Source of the DNA: Alphaproteobacteria bacterium
GTDB lineage: Bacteria; Pseudomonadota; Alphaproteobacteria; Rhizobiales; Beijerinckiaceae
Direction of reading: 5' to 3'
Assembly: GCA_021325385.1 (NCBI GenBank)
Contig: JAJPHH010000137.1
Location: 1 to 64,000, forward strand
Length of the DNA: 64,000 nt
Positions 1,886-13,858 of this stretch are shown in pieces (the first letter of the stretch is position 1; each line of letters opens with the position of its first letter). The notes beneath the pieces are model-generated. The model worked only from the letters and a program-made list of their open reading frames with translations, ran no database searches and was not told where the DNA came from. Both the position numbers and the translations under genes were made by a program.

Positions 1886-3568
1886 ATGGAGATTGTTATG
1901 AGCGAGTCCGGCCTCGGCCAGGACAGTCTCGCCGAGCGCCTCGACTTCATCGGGCTCGACGGCCAAGCGCGGGCGACGCTTAAAGAATTGCAGCCTCTCA
2001 TCAGCGCGGTTGTCGGGCCGGCGCTCGCCGCCGCCTACGATAGGCTCAGAGCCAATTCGGGCGCGCCCAAAGCCTTCGCGGACGACCGCCTGGCGGCGGT
2101 GAAGGACTTGCAGGAGCGGCATTGGGCGACGATCGCCGCGGCCGATTTTTTGGGGGGCTACGCGAGCGAGGCGCGCGACATCGGGCAGGCCAATGGGCGA
2201 ATGGGGCTCGAACCGCGCTGGGTCATTGGCGGCTATGCGTTGGCGCTCGAGCGGCTGATCGCCGCCGTGGTCAAGGACCAATGGCCGACTTTTCTTCGCC
2301 TCAGCCGGACAGGGCCAGACGGCGTTGCGCGACGCCTATCCAGCTTGGTCAAGGCGGCGCTGCTCGACGTCGATCTGATCATGTCCGTGTATTTGGGGAC
2401 GCTGGACGAACTACGCCGCCGGGCGGAAGAGGCGGGCAAGGCGGCGCTGGCCGAAGAGCGGGAGCGGGTCGCCGGATCGCTCGGTCTGGGCCTCGCCAAG
2501 CTCGCGGACAAGGACCTGACCTACCGTATGAGCGGCGACGTCGCGGAGCCTTATCGCGCGTTGCAGGACGATTTCAACGCAGGGCTCGAGCAGCTCGAAG
2601 GCGCGGTGCGCGAAGCGGCCGGCGCGGTCGAGGCGATCCAAGCCGGCGCGCAAGAAATGCAAGCGGCCGCCGAAGACCTGTCGCGCGGCGCCGAACGCCA
2701 GGCCGCCAGTCTCGAAGAGACGGCCGCCGCGCTCGCCCAAATCACCGCCGCGGTGACCAAATCCGCCGAAGGCGCGAGCCGCGCCCGCGATGTCGTGGCC
2801 GCTGCCGACGACGACGCCAAAAAGAGCGCAACCGTCGTTCGCCAAGCCGTCGCGTCAATGGACGCCATCGCCCAATCCGCGCAGCAGATTAACCAGATCA
2901 TCGGGGTCATCGACGAGATCGCGTTCCAGACCAATCTGCTCGCCCTTAACGCCGGCGTCGAAGCTGCGCGCGCCGGCCCGGCCGGCAAAGGCTTCGCCGT
3001 GGTCGCCGCCGAAGTTCGCGCGTTAGCCCAGCGCTCGGCCGATGCAGCCAAGGACATCAAACGTCTGATCTCGGCCTCGACCGCTCAAGTCGGCAGCGGC
3101 GTCAGGCTCGTCGGCGAGACCGGCGCGTCGCTCGAGCGGATCGCGCGACAAGTCGGCGAGATCAACAGCGCTGTGGCCGAGATCGCCGCTGGCGCCAGGG
3201 AGCAGGCAGCCGGGCTGCAGCAAGTGAACGCGGCGGTCCGTCAGATCGACGAGGCGACTCAGCAGAACGCCGCCGTCATCGAGCAATCGGCCGCGGCGAA
3301 CGCCGCGTTGTCGCAAGAGGCGGCAAGACTCGCCGGCGTCATCGGCGAGTTCTCGGCCAGCCCCGCGGAAGGCGGCGCAGCGTCCGGCCAATCGCGGAAA
3401 GCGGCGTCGGGCGCTTTTGCCCCCCCGGCCGCGCGGCCGGGGGAAACGCGAAAAAGCCCGAAGCCGGACGGCGCGGCGGTCAAATCAGAGTTGCGGTACG
3501 TTCGCGAGGAGCCGGCGCGCGGCGTCGCCAAGCGCCTGGCGAAAGCCGCCGGCTCGCGAGCCGGCTAA
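1886..3568 (+). CDS. Methyl-accepting chemotaxis protein with N-terminal protoglobin (globin-coupled sensor) domain
   Basis: [20 protein letters not shown]...[13 protein letters not shown]...[18 protein letters not shown] protoglobin pattern plus MCP signalling hairpin [23 protein letters not shown]; start may be ATG 1898. Confidence 0.88.
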
Positions 3569-4049: not shown

Positions 4050-6026
4050 ATGACGCCCACGAATGTTGGACGCCCGGGGAAAGGCTTCTTCACTTCGATT
4101 CGCGCCAGGCTCGCCGCGGTCGTCGCGATGTTCGCGCTCGCCCTCGTCGCCCTGGTCGCGACGCTGACTTGGATATCGGCGGATTCGATCTTCTCCGCCC
4201 GGCGCGACCAGCTCAAAACAGTGACTCAGGTCGCGTACAAGGTGATCGAAGGTCAGTACCAAGATTTCAAGAACGGCAAGATTTCCGAGACAGAAGCGCA
4301 GGAGCGCGCCAAGGCGGCCCTGCGTCTGATGCGCTACAACACGAGCGACTATTTCTTCGTCCAGAATGACGGCGGCGTCACCATCGTCCATGGCGCGCGC
4401 CCCGATCAGGAAGGAACGACCTCGAATATCCTGGCCTCGGACGGCAGACCGCTTTCGACGGCCCTGCACGACACGGCGGCCGGCCAGGGCGAAGGATATG
4501 TAGGGTACGAATACGCCAAGCCCGGCGAGCCGCTCGACCACACCTCGCCCAAACTGTCCTACGTCAAGTGGTTCGCGCCGTGGAAATGGACGCTCGGCAC
4601 CGGCGTCTATATCGACGACGTCAGCGACCAAATCTGGCGGCGCATCTATGTCTCGGGCGCAATCGCGCTCGGCTTTCTCTTAGCCATTGGCGGCTTCGCC
4701 GGCTGGGTCGTCCTCAACCTGTCGCGGCGGCTCGACGCGCTCAGCGGCGTGATGGTGTCCTTGGCTGAAGGCAATAACGACGTCGAAGTTCCGACGATGG
4801 ACAAGGACGATGAAATCGGCCGCATGGCCAAGTCCGTCCAATATCTCAAGGACGCGGCGATCGAGAAGGCGCGCGTCGAAGCGCAGGCGCAGGCGGACCG
4901 CCGCCAGGCCGCCGAGGCGCGCGACGCGCATGAAGCGGAGCGGACCGAAGAAGCGGGCCTTCTGCAACAGGCGACAGAGGCGCTCGGCGAAGGCATGACG
5001 CGATTGGCGAGCGGCGATCTCGCCTATCGGATCACGACGCCGTTCTCGCCAAAGATCGAAAAGCTGCGCACCGACTTCAACAATTCGGTCGAAAAGCTGC
5101 AAGAGACGCTGCTGAGAATCGCCGCGACCGCCGACGTCATTAAGAGCGGATCGCAGGAACTGTCCAATGCGTCGGACGACATGTCACGCCGCAGCGAGCA
5201 GCAGGCGGCGAGCCTCGAAGAGACGGCCGCGGCGCTCGATGAAATCACCACGACCGTGAAAAAGACCGCCGAAGGCGCGGCGCGGGCCAGAGAGCTCGTC
5301 TCGAACGCCAAGAACGACGCCGAGCGTTCGGGCGACGTGGTGCGCGAGGCGACCGTCGCCATGGGCGGCATCAAGAACTCGTCGCAGCAAATCGGCCAGA
5401 TCATCGGCGTTGTCGATGAGATCGCCTTCCAGACCAATCTGCTCGCCCTCAACGCCGGCGTCGAGGCGGCGCGGGCCGGAGAAGCCGGCCGCGGCTTCGC
5501 CGTGGTGGCCTCGGAAGTTCGCGCTCTGGCGCAACGTTCGGCAGAGGCGGCCAAGGAGATCAAGGCGCTGATCTCCGCCTCCGGGCAGCAGGTCGAGCAG
5601 GGCGTCGATCTCGTCGGCCGAGCCGGCGAAGCGCTGCAGCGCATCGCCGCGCAATTCGCCGAAGTCAACACGGTCGTCGCCGAGATCGCGGTCGGGGCGC
5701 GTGAACAGGCGACCGGCTTGGAGCAGATCAACACCGCGATCAACGAAATGGACAAGGGCACGCAGCAAGGCGCGGCGATGGCCGAGCAGTCGCGCGCCGC
5801 CACCGCCAATCTCGCCCAGCAATCCGACGAATTGGCGCAGGCCGTCGCGCAATTCCGGCTCGACGCGGCCGCAAGCGAGCCGGCCAATGCCGAAGCTCGT
5901 CGGCCGGCGCCCGCCGCCGCGGCGGCGCGGATGGGCGCGGCGCGAACTGCGCTCAAGACCCTCGCGACGCGCCGCGACGGCGCGGCGGTGCGTAAGCCCG
6001 AAGCCGACAATTGGGAAGACTTCTGA
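4050..6026 (+). CDS. Methyl-accepting chemotaxis protein, single-cache periplasmic domain, HAMP, C-terminal NWEDF tail
   Basis: N-terminal TM, sCache_2-like region ([27 protein letters not shown]...[12 protein letters not shown]), HAMP, hairpin [24 protein letters not shown]; ends EADNWEDF. Confidence 0.93.
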
Positions 6027-6337
6027 TGGCGGCCGTCGAGCCGGCGGCGGCTCCCTCGCCAACGACCGTACCGTTGCCCGCGATTCTCGATCTCGCCGCC
6101 GCGGGGCCGCTGACGGAGCGCCTGCTGGCGGCGCGGGGGACCGATCTGACGATCGACGCCTCCGAGGTGCTGCGGGTCGGCGGCCAGTGCCTGCAGGCGC
6201 TGGTCGCCGCCGCCAAGACCTGGAGCGCGGATCGCGCTTCATTTGAAATCGCGCGGCCCTCGCCGGAATTCGTCGAGGCGCTGCAACGCTTTGGAATAGA
6301 GCCAGGAGTCCTCGCCATGCCGGAGCCGTCGCTATGA
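6026..6337 (+). CDS. STAS-domain chemotaxis protein (CheS-like by position)
   Basis: ILDLAAAGPLTERLLAARGTDLTIDASEVLRVGGQCLQALVAAAKTW; overlaps the mcp stop (ATGA-type) and cheY start; position mcp-X-cheY1-cheA as in rhizobial che operons. Confidence 0.75.
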   Translation: MAAVEPAAAPSPTTVPLPAILDLAAAGPLTERLLAARGTDLTIDASEVLRVGGQCLQALVAAAKTWSADRASFEIARPSPEFVEALQRFGIEPGVLAMPEPSL

Positions 6338-6699
6338 GCAAGACCGTGCTGACTGTGGATGATTCGCGCACGATGCGTCAGATGTTGCGCGCCGCGTTGG
6401 TCGACGCCGGCTTCAATGTGCTTCAGGCGGATGACGGCGTCGCCGGCTTGGAGGTCCTCGAAGCCGAGACGCCCGACGTCATCATCACCGACATCAACAT
6501 GCCGCGCCTGGACGGTTTCGGCTTCATCGAAGGCGTGCGCCGCGAGCCTCGCCATCGGGCCGTGCCGATCCTGGTTCTGACCACCGAGAGCGACGCGGCG
6601 AAAAAGGCGAAGGCGCGTTCGGCCGGCGCCACGGGATGGATCGTCAAGCCTTTCGATCCCGAGAAGCTCGTCACCGCCATTCGCCGCGTCACCGCTTAA
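6334..6699 (+). CDS. cheY: Chemotaxis response regulator CheY
   Basis: [18 protein letters not shown]...DVIITDINMPRLDGFGFIEG...WIVKPFDPEKL. Confidence 0.95.
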   Translation: MSKTVLTVDDSRTMRQMLRAALVDAGFNVLQADDGVAGLEVLEAETPDVIITDINMPRLDGFGFIEGVRREPRHRAVPILVLTTESDAAKKAKARSAGATGWIVKPFDPEKLVTAIRRVTA

Positions 6700-6712: not shown

Positions 6713-8914
6713 ATGGCTTCCGACGCAATCGCGGACATCAAAGCGACGTTCTTTCAGGAATGCGAGGAGCAACTCGCCGAACTGGAGGCGGGCCTGCTCG
6801 CGCTCGAGGGCGGCGACGCCGATCTTGAAACGATCAACGCCATCTTCCGTGCGGTCCACTCGATCAAGGGCGGCGCCGGCGCCTTTCATCTCGATGATCT
6901 CGTCCGCTTCGCTCACGCTTATGAGACGAGCCTGGACAACCTGCGCGCAGGACGGATTTCGGCGACGCCGGCCGGAACCAGGGTCATGCTCAGGGCGGCG
7001 GACATGCTCGCCGATCTCGTGCGGGCGGCGCGCGACGGCGGCGCGGCGGACATCGCCCGCGGCGAAGCGATCATCGAAGAACTCGTCGCGCTGGGCGGCG
7101 GCCCGGAGGATCCCGGCCTCGATGAGGGCGACGGCATGGACGGCCTCGATTTCATGCCGGTTCAAGTCTCGTTCGATTCGGATTCGTTGGACGGCGGCGA
7201 AGCGACGGCGGGCGATCCCTCGGCGCCGCGTTATGTCATCCAGTTCAAGCCAAAGCCGGGCCTTTACGCGAAGGCCAATGAGGCCGGACTGCTGCTGCGC
7301 GAACTCGCCCGATTGGGCGAGGCTTCAGTTCGCTGCGACGTCAGCGAAGTGCCGTTGCTGCCTGATCTTGATCCCGAAGGCGCGTATTTGAGCTGGACGA
7401 TCGTCTTGCGCGGCGACGTCGACGAAGCAGCCATTCGCGAAGTCTTCGAATTCGTGGCCGACGATTGCGACCTCGATATCCGGCGCGAAGACGAGGCTCC
7501 GCCTGCGCCGGCCGCCGCCCAGAGCGGCGATCCCGACATACTCAGCCTCCTGAAGAAGCTCGAGGCCGAAGTACAAAATCAGCGCGGCGAGGCCGTGGAG
7601 CGGACGCCCGGGCAGCCTTCGCCGGTCGGGCTGCAGACCATCGATCGGCAACCGGCGGCTGAGAAATCAACCAAAGCCGAGGCAGGCAAAACTACGGCCG
7701 GCGCGGCGGCCGCTTCCGGGCAGACGACGATTCGCGTCGATATCGACCGCGTCGATCGGCTCGTGGATTTGATCGGCGAATTGGTCATCAATCAGGCGAT
7801 GCTGGCGCAGCGGGTCGCCGAAGCGGGCCTCGGCCGCGGCTCAGCGGTCGCCACCGGCCTCGACGAATTGGAGCGGCTGACGCGCGAAATCCAGGATAGC
7901 GTCATGGCGATCCGAGCTCAGCCGGTCAAGCCAGTGTTCCAACGCATGTCGCGCATCGTCCGCGAAGTGGCCGAGATCACCGGCAAATCGGTCCATCTCG
8001 TCACCGACGGCGAAAGCACAGAGGTCGACAAGACCGTTATCGAGCGGCTCGCCGATCCGCTCACTCACATGATCCGCAACGCCATCGACCACGGCATTGA
8101 AGAGCCGGCCAAGCGAATCGCAGCCGGCAAGCCGGGGGAGGGCGTCGTCCGCCTCAGCGCGCTGCATCGATCGGGCCGAATCGTCATCGAGGTCGCGGAC
8201 GACGGCGCCGGCATCAACCGTGCGCGGGTGAGGGAGATCGCGGCGCGCAAAGGCCTGGTGTCCGCGGACGCCGTGCTCAGCGACGACGAAATCGACAATC
8301 TGATTTTCGCGCCGGGATTTTCGACGGCGGAAACCGTCTCGAACATTTCCGGCCGCGGCGTCGGCATGGACGTCGTCAAGCGCTCGATCCAAGCCCTGGG
8401 GGGAAGGATCAGCATCTCCTCTCGTCCCGGCGCTGGCTCGACGTTCACGATGAGCCTGCCTCTGACCTTGGCGGTGCTCGACGGCATGGTCGTCAGCGTC
8501 GCCGGACAAACTCTGGTCTTGCCGCTGACCGCGATCGTCGAGACCTTGCAGCCGTCCGAGACGGACCTGCACGCTTTCGGCACTTCGGGTCAAGTGATTT
8601 TGGTCAGAAAAGCGCTGACGCCGTTGATCGATGTCGGCCTGCGCCTCGGCTTCCGGACGTCGCCGGCCGACTCGCTCTCGTGCGTGGTCATTCTGGTCGA
8701 ATCAGAAGGCGGCGGCCGCAGCGCGCTGCTCGTCGACGCGATCCAGGATCAGCGGCAAATCGTCGTCAAAAGCCTGGAAGGCAATTATGGCCACGTGCCC
8801 GGCATCGCCGCCGCGACCATTCTCGGCGACGGACGCGTGGCGTTGATCCTCGACGTCGACACGCTCGTCGCCGCACGACAGGCAAACGCACTCGAACAGT
8901 CTCAAGCAGCATAG
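6713..8914 (+). CDS. cheA: Chemotaxis histidine kinase CheA
   Basis: Hpt AVHSIKGGAGAF, dimerisation, HATPase HMIRNAIDHGIE / GRGVGMDVVKRSI, CheW-like C-terminus. Confidence 0.97.
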   Translation: MASDAIADIKATFFQECEEQLAELEAGLLALEGGDADLETINAIFRAVHSIKGGAGAFHLDDLVRFAHAYETSLDNLRAGRISATPAGTRVMLRAADMLADLVRAARDGGAADIARGEAIIEELVALGGGPEDPGLDEGDGMDGLDFMPVQVSFDSDSLDGGEATAGDPSAPRYVIQFKPKPGLYAKANEAGLLLRELARLGEASVRCDVSEVPLLPDLDPEGAYLSWTIVLRGDVDEAAIREVFEFVADDCDLDIRREDEAPPAPAAAQSGDPDILSLLKKLEAEVQNQRGEAVERTPGQPSPVGLQTIDRQPAAEKSTKAEAGKTTAGAAAASGQTTIRVDIDRVDRLVDLIGELVINQAMLAQRVAEAGLGRGSAVATGLDELERLTREIQDSVMAIRAQPVKPVFQRMSRIVREVAEITGKSVHLVTDGESTEVDKTVIERLADPLTHMIRNAIDHGIEEPAKRIAAGKPGEGVVRLSALHRSGRIVIEVADDGAGINRARVREIAARKGLVSADAVLSDDEIDNLIFAPGFSTAETVSNISGRGVGMDVVKRSIQALGGRISISSRPGAGSTFTMSLPLTLAVLDGMVVSVAGQTLVLPLTAIVETLQPSETDLHAFGTSGQVILVRKALTPLIDVGLRLGFRTSPADSLSCVVILVESEGGGRSALLVDAIQDQRQIVVKSLEGNYGHVPGIAAATILGDGRVALILDVDTLVAARQANALEQSQAA

Positions 8915-8923
8915 GTGACCGCC

Positions 8924-9388
8924 ATGAGCCAAACTCAATCAACGGAAGCCGAACCCCGCAAAGTCGTCGCCTTTCGGATCGGCAACCAAGAGTTCTGCGT
9001 CGACATCATGTCGGTGCGCGAAATCCGCACCTGGACTCCCGCGACGCCGCTGCCGCGCTCGCCCGATTTCGTCCGCGGCGTGATCAATTTGCGTGGTTTC
9101 GTACTGCCGATCATCGACCTCGCCGCGCGCTTCGGCTTTCCGCCGGCCGAGCCGACCGCGCAGAACGTCATCATCGTCACGCAAATCGGCCAACGAACCG
9201 TCGGCCTTCTCGTCGACGCCGTGTCCGACATTTTGACCGTGACCGACGACCTCGTCCAGCCGACGCCTGACATCGCCTCGGATCGGGCGGCGGCTTTCGT
9301 GCGCGGCGTCTTCGTCATCGAAGGCCGGATGATCAGCTTCGTGGCGCTCGAGGGGGTCGTGCCGAGCGCTGAAAGGGAGGCTGCTTGA
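8924..9388 (+). CDS. cheW: Chemotaxis coupling protein CheW
   Basis: VVAFRIGNQEFCVDIMSVREIRTW...LPRSPDFVRGVINLRGFVLPIIDLAARFG. Confidence 0.96.
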   Translation: MSQTQSTEAEPRKVVAFRIGNQEFCVDIMSVREIRTWTPATPLPRSPDFVRGVINLRGFVLPIIDLAARFGFPPAEPTAQNVIIVTQIGQRTVGLLVDAVSDILTVTDDLVQPTPDIASDRAAAFVRGVFVIEGRMISFVALEGVVPSAEREAA

Positions 9389-10284
9389 GCTTCCAGGCGC
9401 AGATCCGAGATGTCGAAGACAAGGACCCCGAATTCGTCGACAGCGAGTTCGAGATGTCGCGTCGCGACTTCAAAGAGATCGCGGCGACGCTGCACGCCGA
9501 GTCCGGCATTTATATCGCTGAATCCAAGACCGCGCTGGTCTATTCGCGTCTCGCCAAGCGCCTGCGCGCGCTCGGCCTCGCCAGCTTTCGCGACTATTGC
9601 AATCTGATCGCGGGCGAGGACGGCCGCGAAGAGCGCCAACGAATGATCGCGGCGCTGACCACCAACGTCACCGCCTTCTTCCGCGAACCCCATCATTTCG
9701 AGCATCTGAAGCACAACGTCGCGCCGCAATTGATCGCGGCGGCTCAGCGCGGCGAAAGGGTGCGGTTATGGTCCTCGGCCTGTTCGAGCGGCGAGGAGCC
9801 CTATTCGATCGCGCTCACATTGCTGTCGCTGGCGCCGAACCTCGCCAATTTCGACGTCAAGATTCTCGCCACCGATATCGATCCGAACGTCGTCGCCGTC
9901 GGCGAACGCGGCCTCTATTCGGAGCGCGCGCTCGCCGGCGCGCCGGCCAATTTGCGCGAGCGCTGGTTTCGCAGCGCACGCGGCGCGGACGGCGAAACGC
10001 TCAGCGCGGCGGATGAATTGCGCCGGCTGGTCGTTTTTCGCCAATTGAACCTGATCGGGCCGTGGCCGATGAAAGGGCTCTTTCACGCGATCTTCTGCCG
10101 AAACGTCGTCATCTACTTCGATCAGCCGACCCAAGCCAAGCTCTGGGGCCGCTTCGCCTCGGCGCTCGCGCCGGGCGGCGTGCTCTATATTGGCCATTCC
10201 GAACGGCTGTCCGGGCCGGCCGTCGCAGCGTTCCGCAGCGAAGGCGTAACGACCTATCGCTTGAGCGAGGGAGGCCGCCGATGA
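9385..10284 (+). CDS. cheR: Chemotaxis protein methyltransferase CheR
   Basis: [18 protein letters not shown]-type motif ([18 protein letters not shown]), [31 protein letters not shown]. Confidence 0.96.
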
Positions 10285-11330
10285 ATCCAGTCCGCGTCCT
10301 CGTCGTCGACGATTCGCGCACCATGCGCGGCTTGATCGCCGCGGAGCTGGTGCGCGATCCGTCGATCGAAGTCGTCGGTCAAGCCGCCAACGCGCTGGAG
10401 GCGCGCGAGGCGATCAAGGCGCTCAATCCGGACGTCGTGACGCTCGACGTCGAAATGCCGGAAATGGACGGCCTCTCGTTTCTCGAAAAGATCATGCGGC
10501 TTAGGCCGACGCCGGTGATCATGGTGTCGACCCTGACCAGCCGCGGCGCCGAATGCACCGTCAGGGCTTTCGAACTGGGCGCGGTGGACTGCGTCGCCAA
10601 GCCGTCGCCGGGCGACGAGAATTCTCTCGCCGGCCTTGCCGCTAAGGTGAAAGCGGCGGCTTCCGCTCGATTGGCCGGCCTCTCGCATCGATATTCCGCT
10701 CCGCCGAGGAGCCTGGCGCAGAGCACGAGCGCCTCGTACGAACCGGACGGCCGCGTCGTGGCGATCGGGTCGTCAACCGGCGGGGTCGAAGCCTTGCTGA
10801 ACGTCCTGTCCCGGTTTCCGCCGAACTGTCCGCCGACGATCGTCACCCAGCATATTCCCGGCCTGTTCACCAAGAGTCTCGCCGAACGGCTGAACCGCGC
10901 TTGCGCCCCGGCGGTCGCCGAGGCCCAGGACGGCGCGCCGCTCAAAATCGGCCATGTCTACATCGCGCCGGGATCGGTGGCGCATCTCGAAATCGGCGGT
11001 TCGCCCGGCGACTGGCGCTGCCGGCTCAAGGAGACGGCGCCAGTCAACGGCCATCGGCCGTCGGTCGACGTCATGTTCTTTTCCGTCGCCAAGACGATCG
11101 GCAAAAGAGCGGTCGGCGCGATCTTGACCGGAATGGGCCAAGACGGCGCGCATGGCTTGCTGGCGATGCGCGAAGCCGGCGCCAGCACGTTCGGACAGGA
11201 CGAGGCGACCAGCGTCGTTTACGGCATGCCGAGAGCGGCTTTCGAACTCGGCGCGGTCGAGAAACAAGTTCCGTTGGCCAGAATGGGGGATCAACTCATC
11301 GCCATCACGCAACGTAGAGGGAAAACGTGA
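10281..11330 (+). CDS. cheB: Protein-glutamate methylesterase CheB
   Basis: Receiver [15 protein letters not shown] plus methylesterase [16 protein letters not shown]...[17 protein letters not shown]...[15 protein letters not shown]. Confidence 0.97.
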
Positions 11331-11331
11331 G

Positions 11332-11718
11332 ATGTCTATCGCCGCGCAACTCAAAGTTCTCGTCGTCGATGACACGACCACCAGCCGCATGCTCGTGATC
11401 GACGCGCTTCAGGAGATCGGCTTTCGCCAGATCACCTACGCCAGCGATGGCCAAAAGGCTCTGAAACACATGATGACGACGCCGGCGCATCTCGTTATTT
11501 CCGACTACGAGATGCCCGGCCTCGACGGCGTCGGCCTGCTTCAGGGCATTCGCGCCTATCAGCCGACGCGCCACGTGCCGTTCGTGATGGTCACCGGCCG
11601 CGGCGATAAGGCCCTGATCGAGAAGGCGCGGCAGTTCGGCTTGAACAACTTCGTCACCAAGCCGTTCACCGTCGCTTCATTGAAGGCCGCCTTGCAGGCG
11701 ATCATCAAGGGCCTGTGA
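11332..11718 (+). CDS. cheY2: Second CheY-type response regulator
   Basis: [20 protein letters not shown]...[17 protein letters not shown]...FVTKPF; between cheB and cheD. Confidence 0.93.
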
Positions 11719-12260
11719 TGCTGAGGCAAGCGGGACGGAAATATATCCGCGTCATTCAAGGCGAGTGCCACGTCTCCGACGATCCCGACGTCGTCCTGAC
11801 CACGATTCTCGGGTCCTGCGTCGCCGCATGCATTCGCGATCCGGAAATCGGCGTCGGCGGGATGAACCATTTCCTCCTGCCGGGCGACGCGAGCCGCATC
11901 TCGCCGACCAGCGAGGCCGAGCGCTATGGCGCGTATTTGATGGAAGTTCTGGTGAACGGACTTTTGCGCCGCGGCGCCAGCCGCCATCGCCTCGAGGCGA
12001 AATTGTTCGGCGGCGCGAGCGTGGTGAAGAGCCTGTCGCCGATCGGCCTCCTGAACGCGGAATTCGCCAAGCGCTTTCTCGCCACGGAAGGCATCCGGAT
12101 CGTCAGCGAAAGCCTCGGCGACGAACGCGGCCGGCGGGTCGAGTATCGGCCCGTGTCGGGCCATGCCCGCCAACTCTTTGTCGAGGCGCCGGCCGAAATC
12201 GTCGAGGCGCCGCCGCCTTCGCTCGCGGCGAGCGCCCCCGGCGCGATCGAACTCTTCTGA
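11715..12260 (+). CDS. cheD: Chemoreceptor glutamine deamidase CheD
   Basis: [31 protein letters not shown] and KLFGGASV. Confidence 0.95.
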
Positions 12261-12271
12261 CGCGAGGGATC

Positions 12272-12664
12272 ATGTCCGGCAACGCGGTCAGGCAAGTTTC
12301 GACGATCGCCCAGGCCGAACCTTTGGCCGATCTGCTGCGGCGGGTCGCAGAGGAGTTGAGGAGCGCCGCGCGCGCGGTCGACGACGCCTACGGCGCGGCG
12401 GACGACGCCGAGGCCGGCGCTCCCGGCCTGCGCCAACCGCCGCTGACGCAGGCGCTGCAGGAGCTGGATCATACGTACCAGAAGCTCTCCTGCCTCGCCG
12501 ACTTCCTGAACGGGCTCGCCCAATCCGCGCCGGCCCAATGGGCGCTCGACCCCGAGCCGGCCGCGGCCGCGGTGACGCTGTCGGCGCTCGCCGAGCGGCT
12601 GCGCACGCCCGAGGCTTCGCCGTCGCGTCCGGATTCCGGCGACGGCGAGTTCGAGCTGTTCTGA
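12272..12664 (+). CDS. Small chemotaxis-operon protein, CheT-like; possible CheZ-like phosphatase
   Basis: Last gene of the che operon (rhizobial cheT position); contains LDHTYQKL (DxxxQ) in a predicted helix and a flexible tail ending GDGEFELF. Confidence 0.65.
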   Translation: MSGNAVRQVSTIAQAEPLADLLRRVAEELRSAARAVDDAYGAADDAEAGAPGLRQPPLTQALQELDHTYQKLSCLADFLNGLAQSAPAQWALDPEPAAAAVTLSALAERLRTPEASPSRPDSGDGEFELF

Positions 12665-12853: not shown

Positions 12854-13600
12854 TCACCAGCCCTGCGGCCAGGACGAGAAACCGTTCGTCCGGACCTCCG
12901 GCGCGGCGTCGTTCGGCGCGGCGACGGCGGCCTTGGTTTCAAGACAGTAGCCGAGGTAGCGTTTCGAATCGATCGGGTCGAAGCCGAGGCGGTGCTTGAG
13001 CTTCTTGCGCAGCTTCGAGATGTGGCTTTCGACGACGTTCTCGTCCACGTCCTCGTCGAAAAGGCCATAGATCGAATTGAAGATCTGCGACTTGGTGACC
13101 CGGCGGCCACGATTGCTGACGATATACTCGAGGATGCGGCGCTCGCGCCGCGGCAGCGGCAGCGGCTCGCCTTTCACTTCCGGGTCGCGGCCGTCGAAAT
13201 AGACGCGGAGATCGCCGATCGTGACATGATCCGCTTGCGCCTTGTTGCGACGATTGATGGCGCCGACCCGGGCGAGGATTTCGCGCACATGGACGGGTTT
13301 GCGCAGCACGTCGTCCACGCCGGCGGCGAACAGATCCAGAGTCTGGTCGAGCGATGGGCGCTCGTTGAGGCAGATGACCGGCGCGCGCGAGCGCTCGCGG
13401 ATGAGGCGGGGATAGGATTCGCGCTGCTCGCAATCGCCGATCAGGAAAGCCTCGATCGCGTTGACGTCGGCCTCGCTGACCTTGCCGATCCAGTCTCGGA
13501 ATTCGGTCGGGTCGATTCCAGCGGACGATACGCCTTCACGATCAAAGCTCGAAGCGTAGCCCCCGGTCACGACGCTTCGTTCGTCCACGATAATATACAT
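12854..13600 (-). CDS. ftcR: Flagellar transcriptional regulator FtcR/Rem, OmpR-type
   Basis: [23 protein letters not shown]...[59 protein letters not shown]. Confidence 0.85.
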
Positions 13601-13858
13601 CGGCGCTCCTCGTTCGCGACAAGATGAAAGAAAGGACGCAAGAGCACGCAATCGACGCATCACCGCGGCGAGCGGGCAAGCAAGCGGAAACGATCGAGGG
13701 CCCGGGCGCCGGCAAAGCGCCGCCGCCTCGAACGCGAGCACGTTCGACGAGCGCCTCTCGAGAGCTTGGTAGAACCCCAGCCGCGCGCAGCCGGAGCTTT
13801 AAGGAGCCATTAGGCCCGAAGCATCTCGACTGCCATCAAATTGATAAATGCGATATGG

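Follow-up and report, generated by a model that had tools for sequence, protein, structure and literature searches.

The last gene of the chemotaxis operon in the window, by which we mean the whole 64,000-nucleotide stretch of DNA analysed here, is, judged from its sequence, a divergent but genuine member of the known CheT family. We consider it probable that this gene is an orthologue of rhizobial cheT and that the helical hairpin of its product, together with a QxxDxxxQ motif, acts on phosphorylated CheY1 in the manner of CheZ, an action that is likely by analogy with the CheT protein of Sinorhizobium meliloti. Because the CheT family has already been described, the gene is for the most part an ordinary one. 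The alignment of its relatives nevertheless singles out Q63, D66 and Q70, along with a C-terminal tail shared with CheD, as the parts of the protein that can be tested.

The assignment to CheT, which had been put forward in a first-pass annotation, is supported by a family model, by orthologues, by a conserved operon position and by an invariant DxxxQ. The one model with a significant match was NCBIfam NF047973 (CheT; E=1.3e-6, 28.4 bits, residues 10-118), at a score below its 200-bit equivalog cut-off. A single-protein search found orthologues in genomes of the same family at 31-39% identity, with alignments that mostly reach the last residue, and no relative of the protein when run on the genome contig collection. 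Homologues were therefore gathered in two ways, through whole-genome searches and through similarity of CheA. A profile built from 21 orthologues was run on 398 genomes of the order, where it recovered 25 clear homologues, and it added six from elsewhere in the class; weak matches (E>5e-4) in the window's own genome and in long open reading frames were treated as coiled-coil noise. When iterated, the profile connects the window protein to the CheT of Rhizobium and Agrobacterium. Identity to the window protein is 44% for Methylocapsa acidiphila, 37% for Beijerinckia mobilis, 29-30% for Agrobacterium and 28% for Sinorhizobium, and orthologues are present in about 100 alphaproteobacterial loci.

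The neighborhood of the gene is equally characteristic (Table 1). The window operon runs MCP, cheS, cheY1, cheA, cheW, cheR, cheB, cheY2, cheD, cheT, which is the order in S. meliloti; the Agrobacterium fabrum cluster shares this order, and in these clusters the STAS protein is CheS and the final gene CheT. The nearest relatives of the window CheA are from Beijerinckiaceae and Methylocystaceae (Methylocapsa, Methylocella, Methylosinus), and in most orthologous operons the syntenic CheY1 shares 72-79% identity with that of the window. In 10 other genomes, about 13 kb around the cheT match is arranged largely as in the window. Among 80 named records chosen only by CheA similarity, 71 have CheT, mostly directly after cheD. 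Eight of the remaining nine are short or end near CheA; the ninth, Caulobacter sp. S45, is long enough and has neither cheT nor cheD. Records with cheT right after cheD come from Methylocapsa, Methylocella, Beijerinckia, Hyphomicrobium, Rhizobium, Agrobacterium, Ensifer and Caulobacterales. The position after cheD that had been claimed to match rhizobial cheT is thus confirmed by both the window genes and the orthologous operons. In two of the 10 loci, from one alphaproteobacterial family, cheT instead comes after cheR-cheY2, while cheD sits at another place near a receptor, so that in this family CheT is tied to cheY2 and cheR rather than to cheD.

Table 1. Positions in the window of the che operon genes and of the features of CheT, with the evidence for each.
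Feature	Coordinates	Strand	Evidence
Chemoreceptor, ends in pentapeptide NWEDF	4050..6026	+	Translation; synteny with the receptor of orthologous operons
cheS-like STAS protein, start codon uncertain	6011..6337	+	Pfam STAS_2 E=2.6e-12; synteny
cheY1, by homology phosphate-sink CheY, likely CheT target	6334..6699	+	Pfam Response_reg E=2.8e-29
cheA, histidine kinase	6713..8914	+	Pfam Hpt/H-kinase_dim/HATPase/CheW
cheW	8915..9388	+	Pfam CheW E=8.2e-39
cheR, receptor methyltransferase	9385..10284	+	Pfam CheR E=2.4e-61
cheB, receptor methylesterase	10281..11330	+	Pfam CheB_methylest E=2.3e-60
cheY2, single-domain response regulator; motor CheY by operon position	11332..11718	+	Pfam Response_reg; synteny
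cheD, chemoreceptor deamidase, ends GAIELF-COOH	11715..12260	+	Pfam CheD E=1.2e-23; tail comparison
cheT, 130-aa protein, terminal gene of che operon	12272..12664	+	NCBIfam NF047973 match; orthologues
Predicted helix 1, residues 18-48	12323..12415	+	AlphaFold2, block pLDDT 81-95
Predicted helix 2, residues 56-85, carries motif with D66 and Q70	12437..12526	+	AlphaFold2, block pLDDT 95-97 over 61-90
QxxDxxxQ motif, residues 63-70 (Q63, D66, Q70)	12458..12481	+	Kept in all 104 distinct homologues
Predicted short helix 3, residues 94-110	12551..12601	+	AlphaFold2
Pro/Ser-rich flexible linker, residues 111-122	12602..12637	+	pLDDT about 51-52; sequence
C-terminal tail GDGEFELF-COOH	12638..12661	+	Comparison with tails of homologues, CheD and other Che proteins

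CheT therefore extends well beyond Rhizobiaceae, to Beijerinckiaceae, Hyphomicrobium relatives, Caulobacterales and Acidiphilium. In tallies that are not independent trials, since related genomes are counted several times, CheT and the closest CheD class (E<1e-48) coincide exactly within the order sample (25 of 25 genomes, against 0 of 50 for other CheD), and CheZ above the Pfam cut-off occurs in 0 of 31 genomes with CheT versus 15 of 35 that have CheD and no CheT. The distributions of CheT and CheZ hence look complementary. CheT would then represent a short, CheZ-free means of ending the chemotaxis signal that is linked to one class of CheD. Three CheZ matches below the cut-off in CheT genomes were rejected, as they are chemoreceptors (open frames of 650-687 aa ending GGWEEF).

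The DxxxQ spacing on which the first-pass annotation relied is of little weight in a single protein. In a composition-preserving shuffle control, DxxxQ appeared in 46.6% of shuffles of the window protein and QxxDxxxQ in 3.3%, so the case must be made from relatives. Among these, QxxDxxxQ is found in all 104 distinct homologues, none of which was chosen for it, and DxxxQ gains its significance from being kept throughout even though identity over the whole protein drops to 14-30%. Measured against a Rhizobium-type CheT, for example, identity is 14-27%, except among the nearest relatives of that protein. Conservation of the Asp and Gln in orthologues, on which the original proposal had been staked, accordingly holds. 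Q63, D66 and Q70 stand at i, i+3 and i+7 and all fall on one face of the helix.

AlphaFold predicts for the window protein a confident two-helix hairpin (pLDDT about 95 in the helices) with a disordered linker and tail, and for a Rhizobium-type CheT a matching hairpin with helices at residues 14-42 and 52-79. The helical hairpin that had been expected is thus recovered, though as a short one: each helix has about 30 residues, and evidence of a four-helix-bundle dimer did not emerge. Similarly, the Pro/Ser linker and the GDGEFELF end are present as described, but a short turn and the third helix separate the linker from the DxxxQ helix. Profile matches to PDB sequences were to coiled coils and designed bundles only, and were set aside as compositional.

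DxxxQ is the sensor-phosphatase motif of HisKA_3 kinases such as NarX and DesK, and Spo0E is a helical-hairpin phosphatase. Like these, CheT would be a small helical element that uses an acidic/amide pair to act on a receiver domain, although it has neither an ATPase domain nor the SQELD motif. The primary paper on S. meliloti CheT is said to name the sink protein CheY1 as its target. In a review of the published work (PMC12654446), S. meliloti CheT is described as having DXXXQ and a CheZ-like AlphaFold model, as dephosphorylating only one of the two CheYs, and as binding CheR in a complex in which both proteins stay active. CheZ is missing from rhizobia of this class, whose CheY1 serves as a phosphate sink (PMC8429497). 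By extension from S. meliloti CheT, the hairpin of the window protein would bind phosphorylated CheY, with the sink CheY1 as its most probable target; there D66 would contact the conserved Lys of CheY and Q70 would position the attacking water, as in CheZ. Decay of CheY1-P would be sped up, and CheY2-P would be drained through CheA and CheY1 in a system without CheZ. More speculatively, the linker and acidic -EFELF tail might serve as a docking peptide that, within the receptor array, tethers CheT to an adaptation enzyme (CheR or CheB). Compared with S. meliloti and A. fabrum CheT (atu0522; NF047973), the gene occupies the same place after cheD, ending the cheS-Y1-A-W-R-B-Y2-D operon, and the proteins are alike in size, in DxxxQ on a helix, in the predicted helical hairpin and in a GDxExF-type tail. 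What counts against the main reading, that of a CheT acting in the manner of CheZ, is an identity of only 28-30%, a score of 28.4 of 200 bits, and the lack of a detected relation to CheZ in sequence or fold.

The tail is a second conserved element. Among the 104 CheT proteins, 79 end in [DE][LFA][FL]-COOH, most of these in G-[DE]-[FCL]-[DE]-[FLA]-F-COOH, and 62 of 63 CheD proteins from the same operons end in [IVL]-[ED]-[FL]-F, giving both proteins a matching acidic -[DE][LFA]F-COOH end. No such tail was found, in signature-based sets from the same loci, on CheA (0/68), CheW (0/69), CheR (0/55), CheB (0/56) or CheY (0/70), or 0/318 in all. A GxVELF-type C-terminus is frequent in CheD of other proteobacteria, with or without CheT, and is missing from a second, short class of CheD. 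A published account of this shared tail was not found in the open-access papers searched.

Agbekudzi and Scharf (2024) are said to have reported that Sinorhizobium CheR binds pentapeptides. The receptor pentapeptide NWETF docks CheR and CheB (PMC7390727), and the pentapeptide-bearing receptors in these loci end in WEEF or similar. The CheT tail resembles this type of peptide in having a free C-terminus, a preceding flexible linker, acidic residues and a terminal Phe. Moreover, x-[FWY]-x-x-[FWY]-COOH, with an aromatic residue three before the end, fits the window tail EFELF and those of 51 of the 104 CheT proteins (compare GDFEAF of Sinorhizobium with NWETF). A possible though rather doubtful reading is that one dedicated docking peptide, G-x-[hydrophobic]-[DE]-[LF]-F-COOH, is common to CheD and CheT of proteobacteria. 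As a mimic of the receptor pentapeptide, it would recruit both to the same site, probably on CheR or CheB. If so, it would account for the reported CheT-CheR complex, and signal termination and receptor modification would be physically coupled. Against this proposal, Trp never occurs in the CheT tail, CheD has an aliphatic Ile, Val or Leu at the corresponding position, and the pocket residues of Salmonella CheR are not kept in the CheR of these operons. The last comparison is negative or else uninformative, since the residues are also missing from Sinorhizobium CheR, the protein said above to bind pentapeptides.

An alternative to catalysis is that CheT is mainly a scaffold, which binds CheY-P and CheR (perhaps also CheB or CheD) and so couples termination to adaptation, with QxxDxxxQ serving mostly as a binding surface and contributing little to catalysis. 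This would agree with the binding of S. meliloti CheT to CheR, the activities of both being kept in the complex (PMC12654446), and with the docking-like tail common to CheT and CheD. It would also give a role to the invariant Q63, which CheZ chemistry leaves unexplained, as FQDLTGQ of CheZ has no conserved Gln at that register; the conserved polar stripe of Q63, D66 and Q70 could also serve for binding instead of catalysis. We nevertheless regard a predominantly scaffolding role as unlikely. Asp and Gln are held at the exact catalytic spacing in 104 of 104 homologues despite very low overall identity, genomes with CheT lack CheZ, and S. meliloti CheT is stated, in the same review (PMC12654446), to dephosphorylate one CheY.

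It is far less probable that the window protein is a true, divergent member of the CheZ family. DxxxQ on a helical hairpin, the terminal position in a che operon and a short acidic/hydrophobic C-terminal peptide behind a flexible linker all recall CheZ, and the two proteins also share a presumed CheY-P target. However, Pfam CheZ (PF04344) has no match at E<=1 in the window protein or in its whole genome, alignment with hhalign to a CheZ profile including E. coli gave 0.8% probability and lay off the motif, and BLASTP to CheZ gave E=28. In place of the invariant A..FQDL.GQ of CheZ the window protein has QELDHTYQ, without the active-site signature FQDLTGQ; it also lacks the C-terminal Q..[IV]D, the Q..IDxL(F) tail through which CheZ binds CheY. 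At 130 aa versus 214, it has about 60% of the length of E. coli CheZ, with helices of about 30 residues. CheZ was absent from the 50 best structural matches from Foldseek, although searches with both CheT models returned generic hairpins only (WXG100/Esx proteins and others, all at E>0.3) and in themselves neither support nor exclude it. Membership in the CheZ family is thus rejected at the sequence level. With no detectable homology in sequence or fold, CheT would act like CheZ at most by analogy, and this is how the phosphatase proposed in the first-pass annotation fares: the action remains plausible from the description of S. meliloti CheT (PMC12654446), and the homology falls away. The suggestion that the tail is a CheY-binding peptide of the CheZ type is not supported, since the signature Qx[DEG][IV]Dx[LM] occurs in 0 of 104 CheT tails and a like tail is carried by CheD.

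That the reading frame is spurious or degrading, with a chance DxxxQ, has next to no probability: the DNA is GC-rich with abundant overlapping frames, the open frame extends upstream into cheD, and DxxxQ arises in 47% of shuffles, but alignments of orthologues across families, which keep both motif and tail, rule this out. The cheT frame is a genuine gene. It runs from an ATG at 12272, 11 bases past the cheD stop (12258-12260) and a few bases 3′ of a GAGG, to a TGA at 12664, and the predicted 130-aa product contains LDHTYQKL at residues 65-72, as first described, with D66 and Q70 spaced as DxxxQ. Neither a promoter-like nor a terminator-like site turned up around cheT.

The surroundings of the operon offer some further observations. 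The next gene (12854-13741, minus strand) is convergent with cheT and encodes an OmpR-type regulator whose closest NCBIfam model is CtrA, with a weak and partial receiver-domain match. Judged by eye, an obvious transmembrane N-terminus is missing from the first receptor of the cluster (1886-3568), which resembles a globin-coupled, possibly oxygen-sensing receptor and bears no pentapeptide. A third match to WETF in the genome lies in a small unrelated open reading frame and is probably due to chance. A second pentapeptide-bearing receptor in the same genome ends in AWEEF (contig C69, 55564-55578).
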